Of a DNA stretch of 64,000 bases, positions 27,317 through 33,990 are shown piece by piece (the stretch's first letter is position 1; every line of letters begins with the position of its first letter). Origin of the DNA: Candidatus Parvarchaeota archaeon (GTDB lineage: Archaea > Nanobdellota > Nanobdellia > WJKC01); NCBI GenBank assembly GCA_030615175.1, contig JAUWZX010000001.1, positions 126,566-190,565 on the forward strand, written 5' to 3'. Both the position numbers and the translations under genes were made by a program. Below the pieces are notes generated by a model, which was given only the letters and a program-made list of their open reading frames with translations, ran no database searches and was not told the DNA's origin.

Positions 27317-27409
27317 TACAACTTAGGAAGACGAGGCGGATTTATAATGATTATTACTTATTAATAATTCCTTAACCCTTTTAAATTAATTATTTGTAAA
27401 AATTCATTA

Positions 27410-28477
27410 ATGAAGGTTTTAATTACTGGTGGTGCCGGTTTCTTGGGCAGCCACTTGGTTGAGCATTACTTGAATAAAGGGCATGAAGTTTACTGCATTG
27501 ACCATTTGGGCAGCGGCAGCAAGTCTAATATGGAATTATTTGAAACTAATGGGAATTACCACTTCTTTGAGCATGATGTTTCAAAACCCCTGCCTTCAAG
27601 TATTCCAAGAGTTGACTTAATTCTTCACTTTGCTTCACGCGCAAGCCCTCCTGATTACCAGGCATACCCTTTTGATACTATTAGTGCGAACACGATTGGA
27701 ACTGAGAATTTATTACAGAGAGCTCTTAAAGACGGCTCCCGTCTTGTTTATGCAAGCACTAGCGAGATTTATGGCAATCCTCCAAGAGAGGTTGAAATTA
27801 ATGACAAGACGTATAAGTTAATACCTTCTCCTGAATGCTTTTTAGGGTTAGTTAATAGTTTTGGCGTGCGCGCTTGTTATGATGAGAGCAAGCGTGCTGG
27901 CGAGGCGTGGGTTTTTGAGTATATAAGGAAAGGGGTTGATGCCCGCGTCGTCAGGATATTCAATACGTTTGGTCCTCGCATGAGGGTTGATGATGGCAGG
28001 GTTGTAACTAACTTCATTAAGCAGGCGATTCATAATAAACCATTAACTATTTATGGTGCTGGCGGGCAGATGAGAAGTTACTGTTATGTTGATGACTTAA
28101 TTAATGGTATTGTAAGGGTTGCTTCATTCGAGTTTGACGATGAATTTGAAAAGAAATTAAGCAGGTATGTTATGGGGAATCAGTTAAAATATCCTGGTGA
28201 TTACTTATTTGATTTCCATAATGAATTAAAGCTTAAACGCGTTTTTAATGTGGGTAATAATATTGAGCATAAGAGCGTTATAGAACTTGCTGACTTAATT
28301 GTTTCATTAACTGGCTCAAAGTCTGAATTAGAATTTCATGAATTGCCAGAGGATGACCCTGTTGACAGGGTTCCTGACACTACTAAGATTAGGTACTTGC
28401 TTGGCTACAAACCCAAGACAACTCTTAGAGAGGGGCTTGAGAGGACAATTAATCACTTTAAGGAAAAAATGAAATGA
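27410..28477 (+). CDS. NAD-dependent epimerase/dehydratase (UDP-glucuronate decarboxylase-like)
   Basis: MKVLITGGAGFLGSHLVEHYL, YASTSEIYGNP, YDESKRAGEAW, RIFNTFGPRMRVDDGRVV. Confidence 0.85.
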   Translation: MKVLITGGAGFLGSHLVEHYLNKGHEVYCIDHLGSGSKSNMELFETNGNYHFFEHDVSKPLPSSIPRVDLILHFASRASPPDYQAYPFDTISANTIGTENLLQRALKDGSRLVYASTSEIYGNPPREVEINDKTYKLIPSPECFLGLVNSFGVRACYDESKRAGEAWVFEYIRKGVDARVVRIFNTFGPRMRVDDGRVVTNFIKQAIHNKPLTIYGAGGQMRSYCYVDDLINGIVRVASFEFDDEFEKKLSRYVMGNQLKYPGDYLFDFHNELKLKRVFNVGNNIEHKSVIELADLIVSLTGSKSELEFHELPEDDPVDRVPDTTKIRYLLGYKPKTTLREGLERTINHFKEKMK

Positions 28478-29937
28478 ATGTTGTTGTCATTGGCACTGGT
28501 TATGTTGGTCATGCTATTGCTTGTTTGGCTGAGAAAGGGCATGATATTACTTTAATGGATATTGATGATAGTAAAGTTAGGATGATTAATGGCGGTGGTC
28601 CTGTAATTGTTGAAGAAGGTCTTGATGAAATAATTGAGCATGGAGTTAAGAATGATTTGATAAGGGCTTGCTTGGTTGATGATGGGCTTGAATACTTTAA
28701 GAGGGCTGATGTCATTTATGTTGCAGTAGGCACTCCTTGCAAGCCTGATGGCTGTATTGACTTGTCGCAGATTAATAGTGTTGCTGAATCCTTGGGTGGA
28801 ATCCTTAAATTTTTTGATAATAGTCCTGTGATTGCTGTTAAGAGTACTGTTCTGCCAGGCACTACTGATGTTTTCGGTTCTTTAATTGAAGAGTGTTCTG
28901 GTTTGAGGAGGGGTAGGGATTTTTATCTTGTTATGAATCCTGAATTCCTTCGTGAGGGGTGCGCTGTTAATGATTTCTTAAAGCCTGACAGCGTTGTTTT
29001 TGGCGGTGATGAGCCGGGCGTCTGTGTTTTGAGGGAGCTTTACTCATGGGCTGATGACAGGATTCATGTTGTTTCTAATATCAGGACTGCTGAGTCAGTT
29101 AAGTATTTTAAGAATGCCTTGCTTGCTACTAAGATTCATTTGGCTAATCAGTTAGCTAATCAGTGCGAGGAGGTTGGTGTTGATTATTATGATGTGAAGC
29201 CTTTTCTTGAGGTGATGGGTGGTGTTGCTCCTAGTTTTTTCCGTAATGGTCCTGGTTTTGGTGGCAGTTGTTTTCCTAAGGATGTTTCTGCTATTAATGA
29301 GCTTGTTAAGTCTTCTCTTCTCAGTGAAGTCTTGGAGTTGAATGAGTTGCAGGCTTTGCGCGTTATTGATTATTCAAGGAGTGCTGGTTATTCTCCGGAG
29401 AATAAGAGGGTGTGTGTTTATGGTTTGGCTTTTAAGCCTTTTACTGGTGATGTCAGGGAGTCTCCTGCTTTGAAATTGATTAAAGTGCTTCATGATAAGT
29501 GTGAATTAACTGTTTATGACCCTGAGGATGAGGCGGTTATTAATGCTAAGAGGGAATTGAATGGCTTGAATGTTAATTATGCCTGTAACTTTAATGAGGC
29601 TGTTTCCTCTTCTGTGCTTCATTATGTCTTGACTGACTGGCCTGTTTTTAAGTGTTTGAAGGATGTTCCTGGGACTGTGTTCTTTACTCACCGGCTTGTG
29701 GAGCCTGATGTTAGTAATTATAAGTATTGTCTTGGCAGTCCATTAGAGAGAGCGGTTGATTATGAGGCAAGGCTTGGAGTGTTTGTTGATTTTGCTGAGA
29801 GAAAGGTTATTAGTGCCAGGAGAGAGTTTGCGCGTGATTTCGAGCAGTACTTTAATTCTATTGGAGTCAGGTTTGAGGAAGTTGTGAGCGTTGTTTGTAT
29901 GGATAATCGTTTAAGTCCTGGTTATCTTCTTGACTAA
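28474..29937 (+). CDS. UDP-glucose/GDP-mannose 6-dehydrogenase family, C-terminally extended
   Basis: MNVVVIGTGYVGHAIACLAEKGHDITLMDIDD, NPEFLREGCAVNDFLKPDSVVFGG, NGPGFGGSCFPKDVSAI, CVYGLAFKPFTGDVRESPAL. Confidence 0.92.
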   Translation: MNVVVIGTGYVGHAIACLAEKGHDITLMDIDDSKVRMINGGGPVIVEEGLDEIIEHGVKNDLIRACLVDDGLEYFKRADVIYVAVGTPCKPDGCIDLSQINSVAESLGGILKFFDNSPVIAVKSTVLPGTTDVFGSLIEECSGLRRGRDFYLVMNPEFLREGCAVNDFLKPDSVVFGGDEPGVCVLRELYSWADDRIHVVSNIRTAESVKYFKNALLATKIHLANQLANQCEEVGVDYYDVKPFLEVMGGVAPSFFRNGPGFGGSCFPKDVSAINELVKSSLLSEVLELNELQALRVIDYSRSAGYSPENKRVCVYGLAFKPFTGDVRESPALKLIKVLHDKCELTVYDPEDEAVINAKRELNGLNVNYACNFNEAVSSSVLHYVLTDWPVFKCLKDVPGTVFFTHRLVEPDVSNYKYCLGSPLERAVDYEARLGVFVDFAERKVISARREFARDFEQYFNSIGVRFEEVVSVVCMDNRLSPGYLLD

Positions 29938-30741
29938 TGCCACATCTTCTTTTGTGTGGACGTTAACCCATTCGCCTGAAACAGGGTAGCCGTGCATTAG
30001 TCCTTGCTTTGCCAGTTTTGGGAAAACGTTTTCCTGAAGACTCCAATTAATTTTTCCTGGCGGTATGTAGTCAAATATTTTTTCACTCATGAATCCAACG
30101 AAAGTGTTGGCCAGGAATGTTTTAGGATTGTCAGGTTTTTCATAGTATTCAATTATTTTTTCTCCGCTCATTTCAACTATTCCTTTATTAAAAGGGAAGC
30201 TTGTCTGCGCGTGAATGCCGAAGGTGCATACTGAATTATTTTTTTTGTGGAATTCATAAATCTTTTTTAAGTCAAAATTAAAGAAGTGGTCTGCTAGTAG
30301 TATTAGGAAGTCGCTTTTTATTTCGTTTTTAATTAATTCAAGTGTTTTGGCGGTTCCAAGGCTTTCTTTTTCTTCAACGTAATTAATTGTTGCGTCAATT
30401 TTCTTGCCAGTGCCTAATGTTTCGTAAATTTTTGACAGCACTTCCTGTCTTCCAATGATGTAGAAGTTATGGAATCCTGCTTCCTTTGCCTTGAGTATTG
30501 TGTCTTCTATTAATGTTCTTCTTCCTACTTTTATTAGTGGCCTTATCGTGTTTAATCCTTTTACAATCATTGGTTTAGGGTCTCCTCCTGCAAGTATTAC
30601 TGCGTTCTTCATGCTGGAAACGTATTCTCTTAGTATCCGTTCAACCGCGTCGCTTCTTGAGCGCACGAATAATCCGTCAACTAATCCATCAATCTTTTTA
30701 AGTAATTCTTTGTTAATGCTTAGTGAGATGCGTGCTTTCAT
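29911..30741 (-). CDS. Ribbon-helix-helix domain fused to a degenerate sugar-phosphate nucleotidyltransferase domain
   Basis: N-terminus MKARISLSINKELLKKIDGLVDGLFVRSRSDAVERILREYV is RHH-like; then NAVILAGGDPKPMIVKGLNTIRPLIKV, YVEEKESLGTAKTLELI, LLADHFFNFDL are NTase-like. Confidence 0.85.
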   Translation of the reverse strand: MKARISLSINKELLKKIDGLVDGLFVRSRSDAVERILREYVSSMKNAVILAGGDPKPMIVKGLNTIRPLIKVGRRTLIEDTILKAKEAGFHNFYIIGRQEVLSKIYETLGTGKKIDATINYVEEKESLGTAKTLELIKNEIKSDFLILLADHFFNFDLKKIYEFHKKNNSVCTFGIHAQTSFPFNKGIVEMSGEKIIEYYEKPDNPKTFLANTFVGFMSEKIFDYIPPGKINWSLQENVFPKLAKQGLMHGYPVSGEWVNVHTKEDVALVKKITRT

Positions 30742-30750
30742 TTTATTAAG

Positions 30751-30841
30751 TAATACGCTTTTATTACTTTTTAATACTTTTGGTAATAAAGTTAATACTC
30801 AGGTATTACTTTTTAATACTTTCATTACTCTTAATAAATAC
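30751..30841. promoter_or_regulatory. 21-bp phased operator-like array (TAATAC x4)
   Basis: TAATAC begins at 30751, 30772, 30793 and 30814, exactly 21 bp apart; TATTAC at 30762 and 30804 with its reverse complement GTAATA at 30783; degenerate TAAATAC at 30835; 18-bp direct repeat ATTACTTTTTAATACTTT at 30763-30780 and 30805-30822. Confidence 0.8.
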
Positions 30842-30862: not shown

Positions 30863-31810
30863 ATGAATGAAGATGTTTCTAGGCAGGTAGTTACTCCTTC
30901 TGTTAGCAAAGGTCCGAGCAGGTTTCCTATTGTTTCTAGGTCGGTAGTTATTCCTGCTGCTGGCAAGGGTTCGCGTATGCTTCCTATTACTGCTATTGTT
31001 CCTAAGGAGGGGACTTTTGTTTTGACTAAGATTAATGGTCATTACAGGAATGATTTTCTTGTTAATCATGTTCTTAATTCCTGTATTGATTGCGGGTTGC
31101 TTGATGTTGTTATTATTGCTGGTTATCAGAAGGGTAGTTTGCAGGATATTGTTTGTATGGTTGGTCCTGAGGAGACTCGTGATGCTGAGTTCGTTGTTCA
31201 GAATCAGAGTTTTGGTTGGGGTTTAGGCAAGGCTGTTGAGGCTGCTGAGAAGGCTGTTAAGCATTATGCTGGTGATGATTTTGTTGTCTGGCTTGGTGAT
31301 AATATTTTTGATAATACTGATTCAATTAAGGATATGATTTATTCTGTTGATGATTATTTTGCCAAGATTCTTGTTTTAAAGACTGATAGGCCTAGTTTTT
31401 ATGGTGTTGTTAAGTTTGACAGTGATTTTAATGGTTCTCATGGTTTAATCACTGATATTTTTGAGAAGCCTGATGTTAATGAGAGGGCTCCTTATGCTGT
31501 TGATGGTTTTTATTATGGTGTTGCTGGTGTTTACGTTTTCAGTAAGAAGATTTTTGATTATTTGAAGCGGGTTGAGCCTGGCAAGGGCGGTGAGTTTCAG
31601 TTAACTGATGCTATTAAGCTTGGTATTGATTGCGGTGAGAGGGTTTGCTGTTATGTTCATGATGGTGAGCGTTATGATTTCGGCACTTGGGTTGATTATA
31701 ATACTTATCAGGCCAGGTTCTGGTCTGAGGTTTATAGTGAGCCTGTATTATTGGACAAGCTTAATGAGGACCAGATGAATTTGATGTTAAAGTTAAAGAG
31801 TGATTTTTAA
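30863..31810 (+). CDS. sugar-1-phosphate nucleotidyltransferase (GalU/UGPase-like) with duplicated N-terminal motif
   Basis: VVIPAAGKGSRMLPITAIVPKEG, VVWLGDNIFDNTD, FEKPDVNERAPYAVDGFYYGVAGVYVF. Confidence 0.88.
   Translation: MNEDVSRQVVTPSVSKGPSRFPIVSRSVVIPAAGKGSRMLPITAIVPKEGTFVLTKINGHYRNDFLVNHVLNSCIDCGLLDVVIIAGYQKGSLQDIVCMVGPEETRDAEFVVQNQSFGWGLGKAVEAAEKAVKHYAGDDFVVWLGDNIFDNTDSIKDMIYSVDDYFAKILVLKTDRPSFYGVVKFDSDFNGSHGLITDIFEKPDVNERAPYAVDGFYYGVAGVYVFSKKIFDYLKRVEPGKGGEFQLTDAIKLGIDCGERVCCYVHDGERYDFGTWVDYNTYQARFWSEVYSEPVLLDKLNEDQMNLMLKLKSDF
30875..30988 (+). repeat. In-frame 57-bp tandem duplication (19 aa) inside the NTase gene
   Basis: 30875-30931 and 30932-30988 match at 45 of 57 positions by hand alignment; peptides VSRQVVTPSVSKGPSRFPI and VSRSVVIPAAGKGSRMLPI. 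Confidence 0.88.
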
Positions 31811-32911
31811 GTGAGGGCTTTGGTTACTGGTGGATTAGGATTCATCGGCTCTTTCATTGTTGATGAGTTAGTTAGGAATAAGCATTCTGTGCGCGTGCTT
31901 GATAATTTAGAGCCTCAGGTTCATGCAGGTAAACTGCCTGACTACACTAATCCTGAGGCTGAAGTTATTATTGGCAGTGTTTGTGATTCAAGTGTCTGGT
32001 CCAGAGTGCTTGAGGATGTTGAAGTCATTTTTCATCAGGCTGCGATGGTTGGCATGGGGCAGTCACAGTACTTGATTAATAAGTATGTTGACGTTAACGT
32101 GACTGGTACTGCTAAAATGCTTGATTACTTAGCTAATCATGAGCATAATGTTAAGAAATTGCTTGTTGCTGCAAGTATGTCCTCTTATGGTGAGGGTTTG
32201 TGTAAGTGTTCTAAGTGTGGTTTGGTTGAGCCTCCAATGAGGAGCAATGAACAAATAAATGATAAGAAGTGGGAGTTGCGTTGCCCGACCTGCAACTCCC
32301 AGTTATCATCAATGCCCACGCCTGAGACCAAGAGGCTTGACAGCAGTGCTGTTTATTCTTTAACTAAGAAGTATCAGGAGGAGATGTGTTTGTCTTTTGG
32401 CAAAACGTATGGTATTCCTGTTGTCAGTATGCGTTACTTTAATGCTTATGGTCCTAGGCAGTCATTGTCTAATCCTTATACTGGTGTTGCTGCTTTATTC
32501 ACTAGCAGGTTGAAGAATGGTAATACTCCTTTAGTTTTTGAGGATGGATTGCAGAATCGTGATTTCATTCATGTTGAGGATGTTGCCTGCGCTAATGTTT
32601 TCTTAATGAATCATAATATTAGTGGTGAGGCATTTAATATTGGTACTGGTAATACTGTTTCAATTCTTGACTTGGCTAGGAAACTGGCTCAAGGATTGGG
32701 AGTTGACATTGAGCCTAGAGTTTTAAATCAAGGCAGGCCTGGTGATGTGCGTTACTGTTATGCTGATAATTCTAAATTAAGCAGTCTTGGCTTTTCTTTT
32801 AAGTATCCTGAACTTGATATTGATACACTTATTGACTGGAGCAAGGCGGCTGTAGCAGTTGATAAAAGCGAAAAAGCTTTAAATGAAATGAAGCAAAGAG
32901 GATTATTATGA
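31811..32911 (+). CDS. NAD-dependent epimerase with Cys4 insert (dTDP-L-rhamnose 4-epimerase-like)
   Basis: GTG start; MRALVTGGLGFIGSFIVDEL; YGEGLCKCSKCGLVEPP..WELRCPTCNSQ; YSLTKKYQEE; NAYGPRQSLSNPYTG. Confidence 0.82.
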   Translation: MRALVTGGLGFIGSFIVDELVRNKHSVRVLDNLEPQVHAGKLPDYTNPEAEVIIGSVCDSSVWSRVLEDVEVIFHQAAMVGMGQSQYLINKYVDVNVTGTAKMLDYLANHEHNVKKLLVAASMSSYGEGLCKCSKCGLVEPPMRSNEQINDKKWELRCPTCNSQLSSMPTPETKRLDSSAVYSLTKKYQEEMCLSFGKTYGIPVVSMRYFNAYGPRQSLSNPYTGVAALFTSRLKNGNTPLVFEDGLQNRDFIHVEDVACANVFLMNHNISGEAFNIGTGNTVSILDLARKLAQGLGVDIEPRVLNQGRPGDVRYCYADNSKLSSLGFSFKYPELDIDTLIDWSKAAVAVDKSEKALNEMKQRGLL

Positions 32912-33990
32912 GAATATTAATTGTTGGCGGTGACGGGTTCGTTGCTTTTCATAATACTAAATACTTATTAGAGAGAGGGATTGCTGATGAAATAATATTG
33001 CTTGACAATCAGTCAAGGGCTGGTGGCAGGAATATTAGTTACTTGCAGACAGAGTTTGGCGAGGATAAAGTTATTAATGTTAAGGCTGATATCCGCGACC
33101 TTAGTGAAATAATTCCTTACTTTAAGGATGTTGACCGCGTTTACCATACAGCGGCGCAAGTAACCATGACTAAGAGTTTAGAAAACCCTGTATGGGATTA
33201 TGGAATTAATAGTACTGGGACAATAAATGTTTTGGAAGCAGTTAGGCTTAAGTGTTCTGATGCGCCAGTAATTTACTGTTCAACTAATAAGGTTTACGGC
33301 GACATTATCAAGGTTGATGCTCATAGGAAATTTAATAATAGTGACTACGTTGTGAGGAATAATAAGTATACTTATTCTGATGAGTTAATTGAAGGCATTA
33401 CTGAAAATGGCTTTCATGTTGGACCTGAAGCAGCTAATTGTCCTTACGGCACTTCTAAAATGATGGGTGAATTGTCTATGAGGAATTACTTTGATTCTTA
33501 TGGCATTAAGACTGTTAGGGCGCGCATGAGTTGTATTTATGGGACTCACCAGTACGGGTGCGAGGATCAAGGCTGGCTTTCATGGTTTACTATTAGAACA
33601 CTTCTTGATGAACCAATAACTATTTTTGGTGATGGCATGCAGGTGCGTGATGTTTTATACGGCAGCGACCATGCAAGAGCTTTTGATTTAATGGCGGCAA
33701 CGCCTAAGTGTTATGGCGGGGCGTTTAATCTTGGTGGAGGTCATGATAATACTTTATCACTTCTTGAATTATTGGATTTGATTGAGCAATTCACTGGCAA
33801 GCGAACAGACATTAAGTACTCTGACTGGCGCCACGGCGACCAAAGAGTGTATATTAGTGACATTATGAAATTGAAGGAATATACTGGCTGGGAGCCTGAA
33901 GTTTCTGTTCATGATGGTGTTAAGAAATTAATTGACTGGACTGCTGGTAATATTAAGGAAATCAAGAAAGTCATTTCTGAGTCTTCTTAA
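32908..33990 (+). CDS. NAD-dependent epimerase (CDP-paratose/tyvelose 2-epimerase-like)
   Basis: MRILIVGGDGFVAFHNTKYLLERG, YCSTNKVYGD, PYGTSKMMGEL, RMSCIYGTHQYGCEDQGWLSWF. Confidence 0.8.
   Translation: MRILIVGGDGFVAFHNTKYLLERGIADEIILLDNQSRAGGRNISYLQTEFGEDKVINVKADIRDLSEIIPYFKDVDRVYHTAAQVTMTKSLENPVWDYGINSTGTINVLEAVRLKCSDAPVIYCSTNKVYGDIIKVDAHRKFNNSDYVVRNNKYTYSDELIEGITENGFHVGPEAANCPYGTSKMMGELSMRNYFDSYGIKTVRARMSCIYGTHQYGCEDQGWLSWFTIRTLLDEPITIFGDGMQVRDVLYGSDHARAFDLMAATPKCYGGAFNLGGGHDNTLSLLELLDLIEQFTGKRTDIKYSDWRHGDQRVYISDIMKLKEYTGWEPEVSVHDGVKKLIDWTAGNIKEIKKVISESS

Follow-up and report, generated by a model that had tools for sequence, protein, structure and literature searches.

Which role is served by a protein that carries a DNA-binding domain in front of an apparently inactive enzyme is the question raised by one gene in the window, by which we mean the whole 64,000-nucleotide stretch of a Candidatus Parvarchaeota archaeon contig that was analysed here by computation alone. 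Its product, referred to below as the window protein, had been described in a first-pass annotation as a ribbon-helix-helix (RHH) domain fused to a nucleotidyltransferase (NTase) without its catalytic loop, and as a candidate repressor that senses a sugar nucleotide. The features discussed are collected in Table 1.

Table 1. Location of the window gene, its domains, predicted operator elements and neighbouring genes.
Feature	Position in window	Strand	Basis or remarks
RHH-pseudonucleotidyltransferase gene, proposed regulator	29911..30741	-	ORF, 276 aa; Pfam; AlphaFold
RHH DNA-binding domain, residues 4-41	30619..30732	-	Pfam RHH_1 PF01402
NTase fold, residues 47-260, inferred to sense the ligand	29962..30603	-	Pfam NTP_transferase PF00483; fold matches
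Site of the missing catalytic loop, residues 52-67	30541..30588	-	Column conservation, 86 intact vs 38 lost-loop proteins
Predicted proximal operator core, GTAATA-N5-GTATTAC	30750..30767	-	8 nt upstream of ATG; sole site in source genome
Predicted operator array	30750..30828	.	GTATTA at -78, -57, -36 and -15, GTAATA at -68 and -26 from ATG
17-bp palindrome, GTATTAC-TTT-TTAATAC	30803..30819	.	Best genome match to GTATTAC-N3-GTAATAC
GalU-like UTP-glucose-1-phosphate uridylyltransferase gene, presumed target	30863..31810	+	121 bp from regulator start
UDP-glucose/nucleotide-sugar 6-dehydrogenase (UGDH) gene, pathway gene	28474..29937	+	TIGR03026, 309 bits vs cut-off 190
NAD-dependent epimerase/dehydratase gene, pathway gene	27410..28477	+	PF01370, E 7e-44
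Two nucleotide-sugar epimerase/dehydratase genes, downstream of GalU-like gene	31811..33990	+	PF01370

Domain architecture and predicted fold

The coordinates, strand and sequence given in the first-pass annotation for the open reading frame proved to be exact, and both of the domains that it had assigned were recovered by Pfam: the N-terminal residues match RHH_1 above the cut-off (E 1.6e-5; 25.1 bits compared to a cut-off of 20.5), whilst residues 47-260 match the NTP_transferase family (E 2.5e-19). The AlphaFold monomer model of the window protein (mean pLDDT 90.8, pTM 0.83) exhibits an extended N-terminal segment followed by two RHH helices (residues 11-18 and 29-40) and then an NTase fold of the RmlA/GMPP type, with the only weak region being the would-be catalytic loop (pLDDT about 61). 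The top PDB match of this model is a glucose-1-phosphate thymidylyltransferase (3hl3; TM 0.74, E 5e-19), with RmlA, GMPPA/GMPPB and MurU amongst the further structural matches. The source genome encodes only two proteins that exceed the RHH_1 cut-off, namely the window protein and a catalytically intact paralogue. The NCBIfam models for NikR give 14-18 bits on the window protein, restricted to residues 3-45, compared to cut-offs of 83-111; neither this cut-off nor the requirement for the C-terminal metal-binding domain of NikR is met, and no Pfam match to the PRODH/P5CDH catalytic domains was found in the window protein. An internal start at Met44, which the first-pass annotation had named as a finding that would refute its reading, can be excluded: the RHH segment is present in all lost-loop homologues that were read, and the predicted operator lies upstream of Met1.

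Loss of the catalytic site

Where intact enzymes exhibit the motif GGxGTRLxPxTxExPK, residues 52-67 of the window protein read GGDPKPMIVKGLNTIR. The loop columns G, T, R, P, T, P and K are 94-100% conserved among 86 intact RHH-NTases and none of them is kept in the 38 proteins of the lost-loop clade, so that the missing GxGTR loop remarked upon in the first-pass annotation is a property of the window protein and its lost-loop relatives alike. All loop counts quoted here compare these 38 rows of the lost-loop clade with the 86 intact rows, given that the automatic intact/lost labels misplaced a few diverged rows (e.g. L077, L086, L198 and L199). The accompanying statement that the lysine of the PKP motif is not conserved holds only in part: the lysine is indeed gone, but it has not simply been lost, with arginine found at this position in 32 of the 38 proteins. 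To these observations we can add that the second metal-binding aspartate is missing throughout the clade, as Asp occupies position 260 in 57 of the 86 intact proteins and in 0 of the 38 lost-loop proteins (Asn in the window protein). Other elements of the active site persist: the first metal-binding residue Asp151 in the window protein and in 36/38 lost-loop proteins, the base-loop residue Gly129 in the 28 lost-loop proteins from genera other than g15 and the sugar-phosphate residue Lys202 in 25/38 lost-loop proteins. The roles of positions 129, 151, 202 and 260 in base, metal and sugar-phosphate binding are here assumed to be those established for RmlA-type enzymes. Taken from the sequence, the absence of the NTP loop and of the second metal-binding aspartate supports the prediction that catalysis has been lost in the window protein.

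The residues that do persist need to be weighed against this prediction, since Asp151, Gly129 and often Lys202, together with the conserved arginine in place of the PKP lysine, could also belong to a bifunctional enzyme that still transfers a nucleotidyl group, albeit with another substrate, and that represses its own promoter. PutA provides a precedent for such an RHH-enzyme autorepressor (PMC5293562), and most members of the family (86 rows) retain the full catalytic loop. We nevertheless consider this explanation unlikely for the window protein, as the G, T, R, P, T and P positions of the loop and the second metal-binding aspartate have all been lost in its clade, and an intact NTase gene adjoins in the window as well as in many of the other neighbourhoods.

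In pairs of lost-loop genes for which dS could be estimated, dN/dS was 0.04-0.13 over the NTase part and 0-0.15 over the RHH part. Both domains of the lost-loop clade are under purifying selection, and the dead NTase domain is therefore kept for a function. The loss of catalytic motifs would also be expected from a decaying pseudogene or a sequencing artefact; dN/dS values far below 1 in both domains exclude decay, and with full-length open frames across many families and a conserved operator, practically nothing remains in favour of this explanation.

Distribution and phylogeny of RHH-NTases

The first-pass annotation had proposed searching related genomes for the same architecture, and such a search recovered 134 non-redundant RHH-NTase fusions, mostly from DPANN archaea with a few from Patescibacteria. 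NTase matches were found in 75 of 95 class relatives and in 228 of 285 phylum genomes, with well over a hundred of these matches beginning at or near residue 1. The RHH-NTase records stem from Parvarchaeota, Nanoarchaeota, Woesearchaeota, Altiarchaeota, Aenigmatarchaeota, Micrarchaeota, Diapherotrites, Njordarchaeum and Berkelbacteria/Patescibacteria. Genomes belonging to one family cannot be counted as independent, some records derive from incomplete bins and some record names are possibly mis-binned; RHH-NTases titled as Aminicenantes bacterium (L138) and Methanosarcinales (L152) cluster with those of Woesearchaeota/Nanoarchaeota in the tree, and are probably mis-binned contigs or titles.

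In the tree of all 134 proteins, the 38 lost-loop proteins including the window protein form one clade (SH-aLRT 95), within which the window protein belongs to a subclade of seven members (SH-aLRT 98) that are 40-49% identical to it (the window clade); a few further losses of the loop occur elsewhere. The catalytic loop is kept in about 86 of the 134 fusions. Such catalytically intact RHH-NTases, one of which is encoded in the source genome, were missed by the first-pass annotation. The intact paralogue in the source genome (L002:1453-2286, minus strand) carries an GGKGTRLRPITYEIPKPM loop, its nearest named record is a Parvarchaeota MAG at 83% identity, and we regard it as a candidate for a bifunctional enzyme-repressor that follows the logic of PutA.

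Genes adjoining several intact members were also inspected. Downstream of the intact gene on L002 lie an LbH-type sugar NTase and then a PMM-like gene, and similar operons recur in relatives. Intact RHH-NTases from Woesearchaeota (L163, L175, L193) are divergent from an apparent fructose-1,6-bisphosphatase gene, with L175 carrying a GTATTACTTTATCATAC site, and those from Altiarchaeota (L135, L139, L140, L153, L160, L174) are divergent from an apparent RNA 3'-phosphate cyclase gene; both of these neighbours were named by eye.

A predicted operator at the window gene and in its clade

The 121-bp intergenic region that separates the regulator gene from the GalU-like gene contains nine half-site matches, and the four GTATTA half-sites upstream of the window gene are spaced by exactly 21 bp. 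Dinucleotide shuffles of this region (2000 in total) gave a mean of 0.64 half-sites and a maximum of 5, whilst elsewhere in the window no 121-bp segment contains more than 4 matches. The palindrome GTATTAC-N3-GTAATAC was first encountered in front of intact RHH-NTase genes of other genomes; when the 1.0-Mb source genome was searched by pattern, its best match, with one mismatch, was the palindrome found within the array. The pattern GTAATA-N5-GTATTAC occurs exactly once per genome in 7/7 sampled genomes of the window clade, in each case directly before the start of the regulator gene, and a search of 285 genomes using this pattern alone led to an eighth member of the clade (G304). As there is one site per clade genome and each is located at the gene, we propose it as the operator of the window clade. 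The kind of operator expected of an RHH protein, specific and made up of repeated or palindromic half-sites, is thus present, conserved and unique in each clade genome, although binding data are not available. The pattern cannot serve as a specific site across the phylum, since around a dozen of the sampled genomes, in which no window-clade gene is known, carry a background site with no shared theme.

For a held-out test, the palindrome was generalised to RTATKAY-N3-RTMATAY with at least 13 of 14 positions matching. It was found upstream of 24 of 102 newly fetched RHH-NTases compared to 5 of 588 control ORFs (p 6e-17), with several of the 5 control matches belonging to nucleotide-sugar genes or to genes that are themselves arranged divergently with an RHH-NTase gene. 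As sequences within families are related, the Fisher p-values imply more independent events than there are, and some of the held-out records duplicate contigs from genomes that had already been analysed. GTATTAC-N3-GTAATAC was rejected as a general code of the family: it accounts for some members only, and is found at phosphoglycerate kinase promoters as well. The latter are exact matches at the starts of phosphoglycerate kinase genes in two relatives (L096:4031-4047 in G018; L098:4020-4036 in G004), possibly representing another regulon of an RHH protein. A weak operator-like sequence upstream of the epimerase-UGDH pair in the window (TTATTACTTATTAATAA, positions 27351-27367) was likewise discarded, as it contains three mismatches and about 2.9 such matches are expected in the window.

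The operators adjoin TATA-like AT-rich elements, which, together with the palindromes at the phosphoglycerate kinase promoters, leaves room for the explanation that the repeats are core promoter elements or are bound by another transcription factor, with the RHH-pseudoNTase acting in some other manner. We hold this to be very unlikely: the sites are present in single copy per genome and track the RHH-NTase gene family, and the sole two RHH_1 proteins above the cut-off in the source genome are its two RHH-NTases.

Operators of the sister clade and paired paralogues

The sister lost-loop clade exhibits a different predicted operator, CTTACC-N-TTATCCTAC, located between two TATA-like elements. 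In 285 genomes this operator (CTTACCNTTATCCTAC) occurs 23 times and never more than once per genome: 21 of these sites precede RHH-NTase genes by no more than about 320 nt, mostly divergent from UGDH, whilst the remaining 2 lie 31-45 nt upstream of UGDH in genomes where the lost-loop gene is on another contig. The site therefore tracks both genes, target and regulator. The sequence ATCCTACNNNRTAGGAT was found at 3 sites in 95 genomes, all of them at lost-loop genes, and some operators of the RHH-NTase family contain GTATGA/TCATAC half-sites. No clear operator was found for the lost-loop genes of genus g15 (family f14); the divergent neighbour of these ten genes (e.g. at L052, L054 and L056) is mostly a proteasome beta-subunit gene.

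Lost-loop and intact paralogues co-occur, and in three genomes they are encoded in tandem. This co-occurrence could indicate that the dead NTase pairs with an active one (GalU-like or its own paralogue) and inhibits it allosterically, with the RHH domain serving mainly for dimerisation. Non-catalytic GMPPA, which binds GDP-mannose and inhibits GMPPB, offers a model for such a subunit (PMC11228364), and GMPPA/GMPPB are amongst the top fold matches of the window protein. In the tandem genomes, however, a TCCTAC-type operator stands before the lost-loop gene and a GTATTAC-type operator before its intact partner, pointing to separate DNA-binding species, and an inhibitory subunit would leave unexplained both the dedicated operators and the sites at UGDH when the lost-loop gene is on another contig. 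An allosteric subunit of this type is thus improbable in our assessment.

Neighbouring genes and presumed targets

The order of genes in the window is epimerase-UGDH, the regulator on the opposite strand, the GalU-like gene and two epimerases. For the product of the GalU-like gene, GalU is the best NCBIfam model (E 7.4e-35), albeit below the equivalog cut-off. The product of the epimerase gene preceding UGDH is possibly UDP-glucuronate decarboxylase-like, and its homologues are found in UGDH-NTase-epimerase operons that adjoin lost-loop genes. Across the lost-loop clade, the divergent neighbours are UGDH (13 cases), epimerases like that preceding UGDH in the window, RmlC-like and RmlB/GMD-like genes and the GalU-like gene of the window, with UGDH being the conserved divergent partner of the sister-clade regulators. 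By a BLAST criterion, 20/36 lost-loop genes outside one genus have a nucleotide-sugar gene as divergent neighbour compared to 4/86 intact genes (p 1e-9, kinship uncorrected). Within the window clade the divergent genes vary, being GalU-like in the window and RmlC-like or RmlB-like elsewhere, and synteny therefore does not fix the ligand.

Proposed function and evolution

The first-pass proposal of a DNA-binding regulator of nucleotide-sugar synthesis is borne out by the single-copy operators, shared by several genera, at regulator genes and nucleotide-sugar operons and by the conserved neighbours, with the reservation that no binding was measured. We regard it as probable that the window protein is a pathway-specific one-component repressor, with an RHH domain that binds operators in the divergent promoter region and a dead NTase domain that senses a nucleotide sugar. 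The parts of this reading differ in their support: DNA targeting by lost-loop RHH-NTases is strongly supported, if only by comparative genomics, whilst ligand binding by the NTase domain, repression rather than activation and the direction of the ligand effect are inferred. The RHH domains would dimerise and bind GTATTA/GTAATA half-sites spaced by 10-11 and 21 bp, and the regulator would repress both its own gene and the divergent GalU-like gene; repression of both promoters would agree with the gene arrangement, in which the protein has its own operator and a divergent pathway operon, with the operator beside or downstream of TATA-like elements. The C-terminal domain would descend from a sugar-1-phosphate nucleotidyltransferase and, without the NTP-binding loop and the second metal-binding aspartate, would no longer perform catalysis but would probably still bind one of the pathway's nucleotide sugars, the candidates being UDP-glucose, UDP-glucuronate or a UDP-pentose. 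Coupling of the nucleotide-sugar level to DNA binding would place nucleotide-sugar synthesis under end-product control, with the ligand as a co-repressor being a more likely guess than the ligand as an inducer.

On the level of the family, we lean towards a widespread and undescribed group of DPANN regulators, in which a sugar-nucleotide pyrophosphorylase first acquired an RHH domain, becoming enzyme and repressor at once, and a copy from an ancient duplication later gave up catalysis and turned into a pure nucleotide-sugar sensor, with operator codes and pathways (UDP-glucuronate, GalU-linked, rhamnose-like) that differ between subclades. The ancestral role may have been dual, as the intact paralogues show that the RHH domain is compatible with catalysis.

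Relation to known regulators and significance

NikR also combines an N-terminal RHH domain with a ligand domain, and the operator of E. coli NikR, GTATGA-N16-TCATAC (PMC7055735), shares its half-sites with some operators of the RHH-NTase family. NikR differs in sensing nickel by a metal-binding domain where the window protein has an NTase fold, and the operators of the window family are compact (a palindrome with a 3-bp centre) or tandem at 10-11 and 21 bp. PutA, in which an N-terminal RHH domain is joined to proline dehydrogenase/P5C dehydrogenase and represses its own regulon (PMC5293562), is resembled in its logic by the intact RHH-NTases; the window protein, in contrast, lacks the catalytic loop, has a different enzyme fold, is archaeal and acts, as we propose, on a divergent pathway operon. 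GMPPA, the GMPPB paralogue without catalytic activity, is likewise a pseudo-NTase with this fold; it binds a nucleotide sugar and exerts feedback control (PMC11228364), and its structures are close fold matches. GMPPA controls enzyme activity by complex formation, whereas the window protein is equipped with a domain for DNA binding and has a conserved predicted operator. RmlA, GalU, MurU and GMPP share fold and Pfam family with the window protein, which differs from them in the absence of the GxGTR loop, the PK lysine and the second metal-binding aspartate and in the presence of the RHH domain. No description of an RHH-NTase fusion was found in the open-access literature searched (subscription papers were not covered), and within that scope we rate these proteins as a new regulator family within a known kind, that of one-component, enzyme-derived regulators.

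Very little is known of metabolic control in DPANN archaea, and the RHH-NTase family brings together a regulator, a predicted operator and candidate target genes in one package. It also presents an evolutionary series that leads from an active enzyme via an enzyme with a DNA-binding domain to a dead-enzyme sensor. With operators and candidate ligands named, the family is directly testable and, if our reading is true, would lend itself naturally to the development of nucleotide-sugar biosensors.
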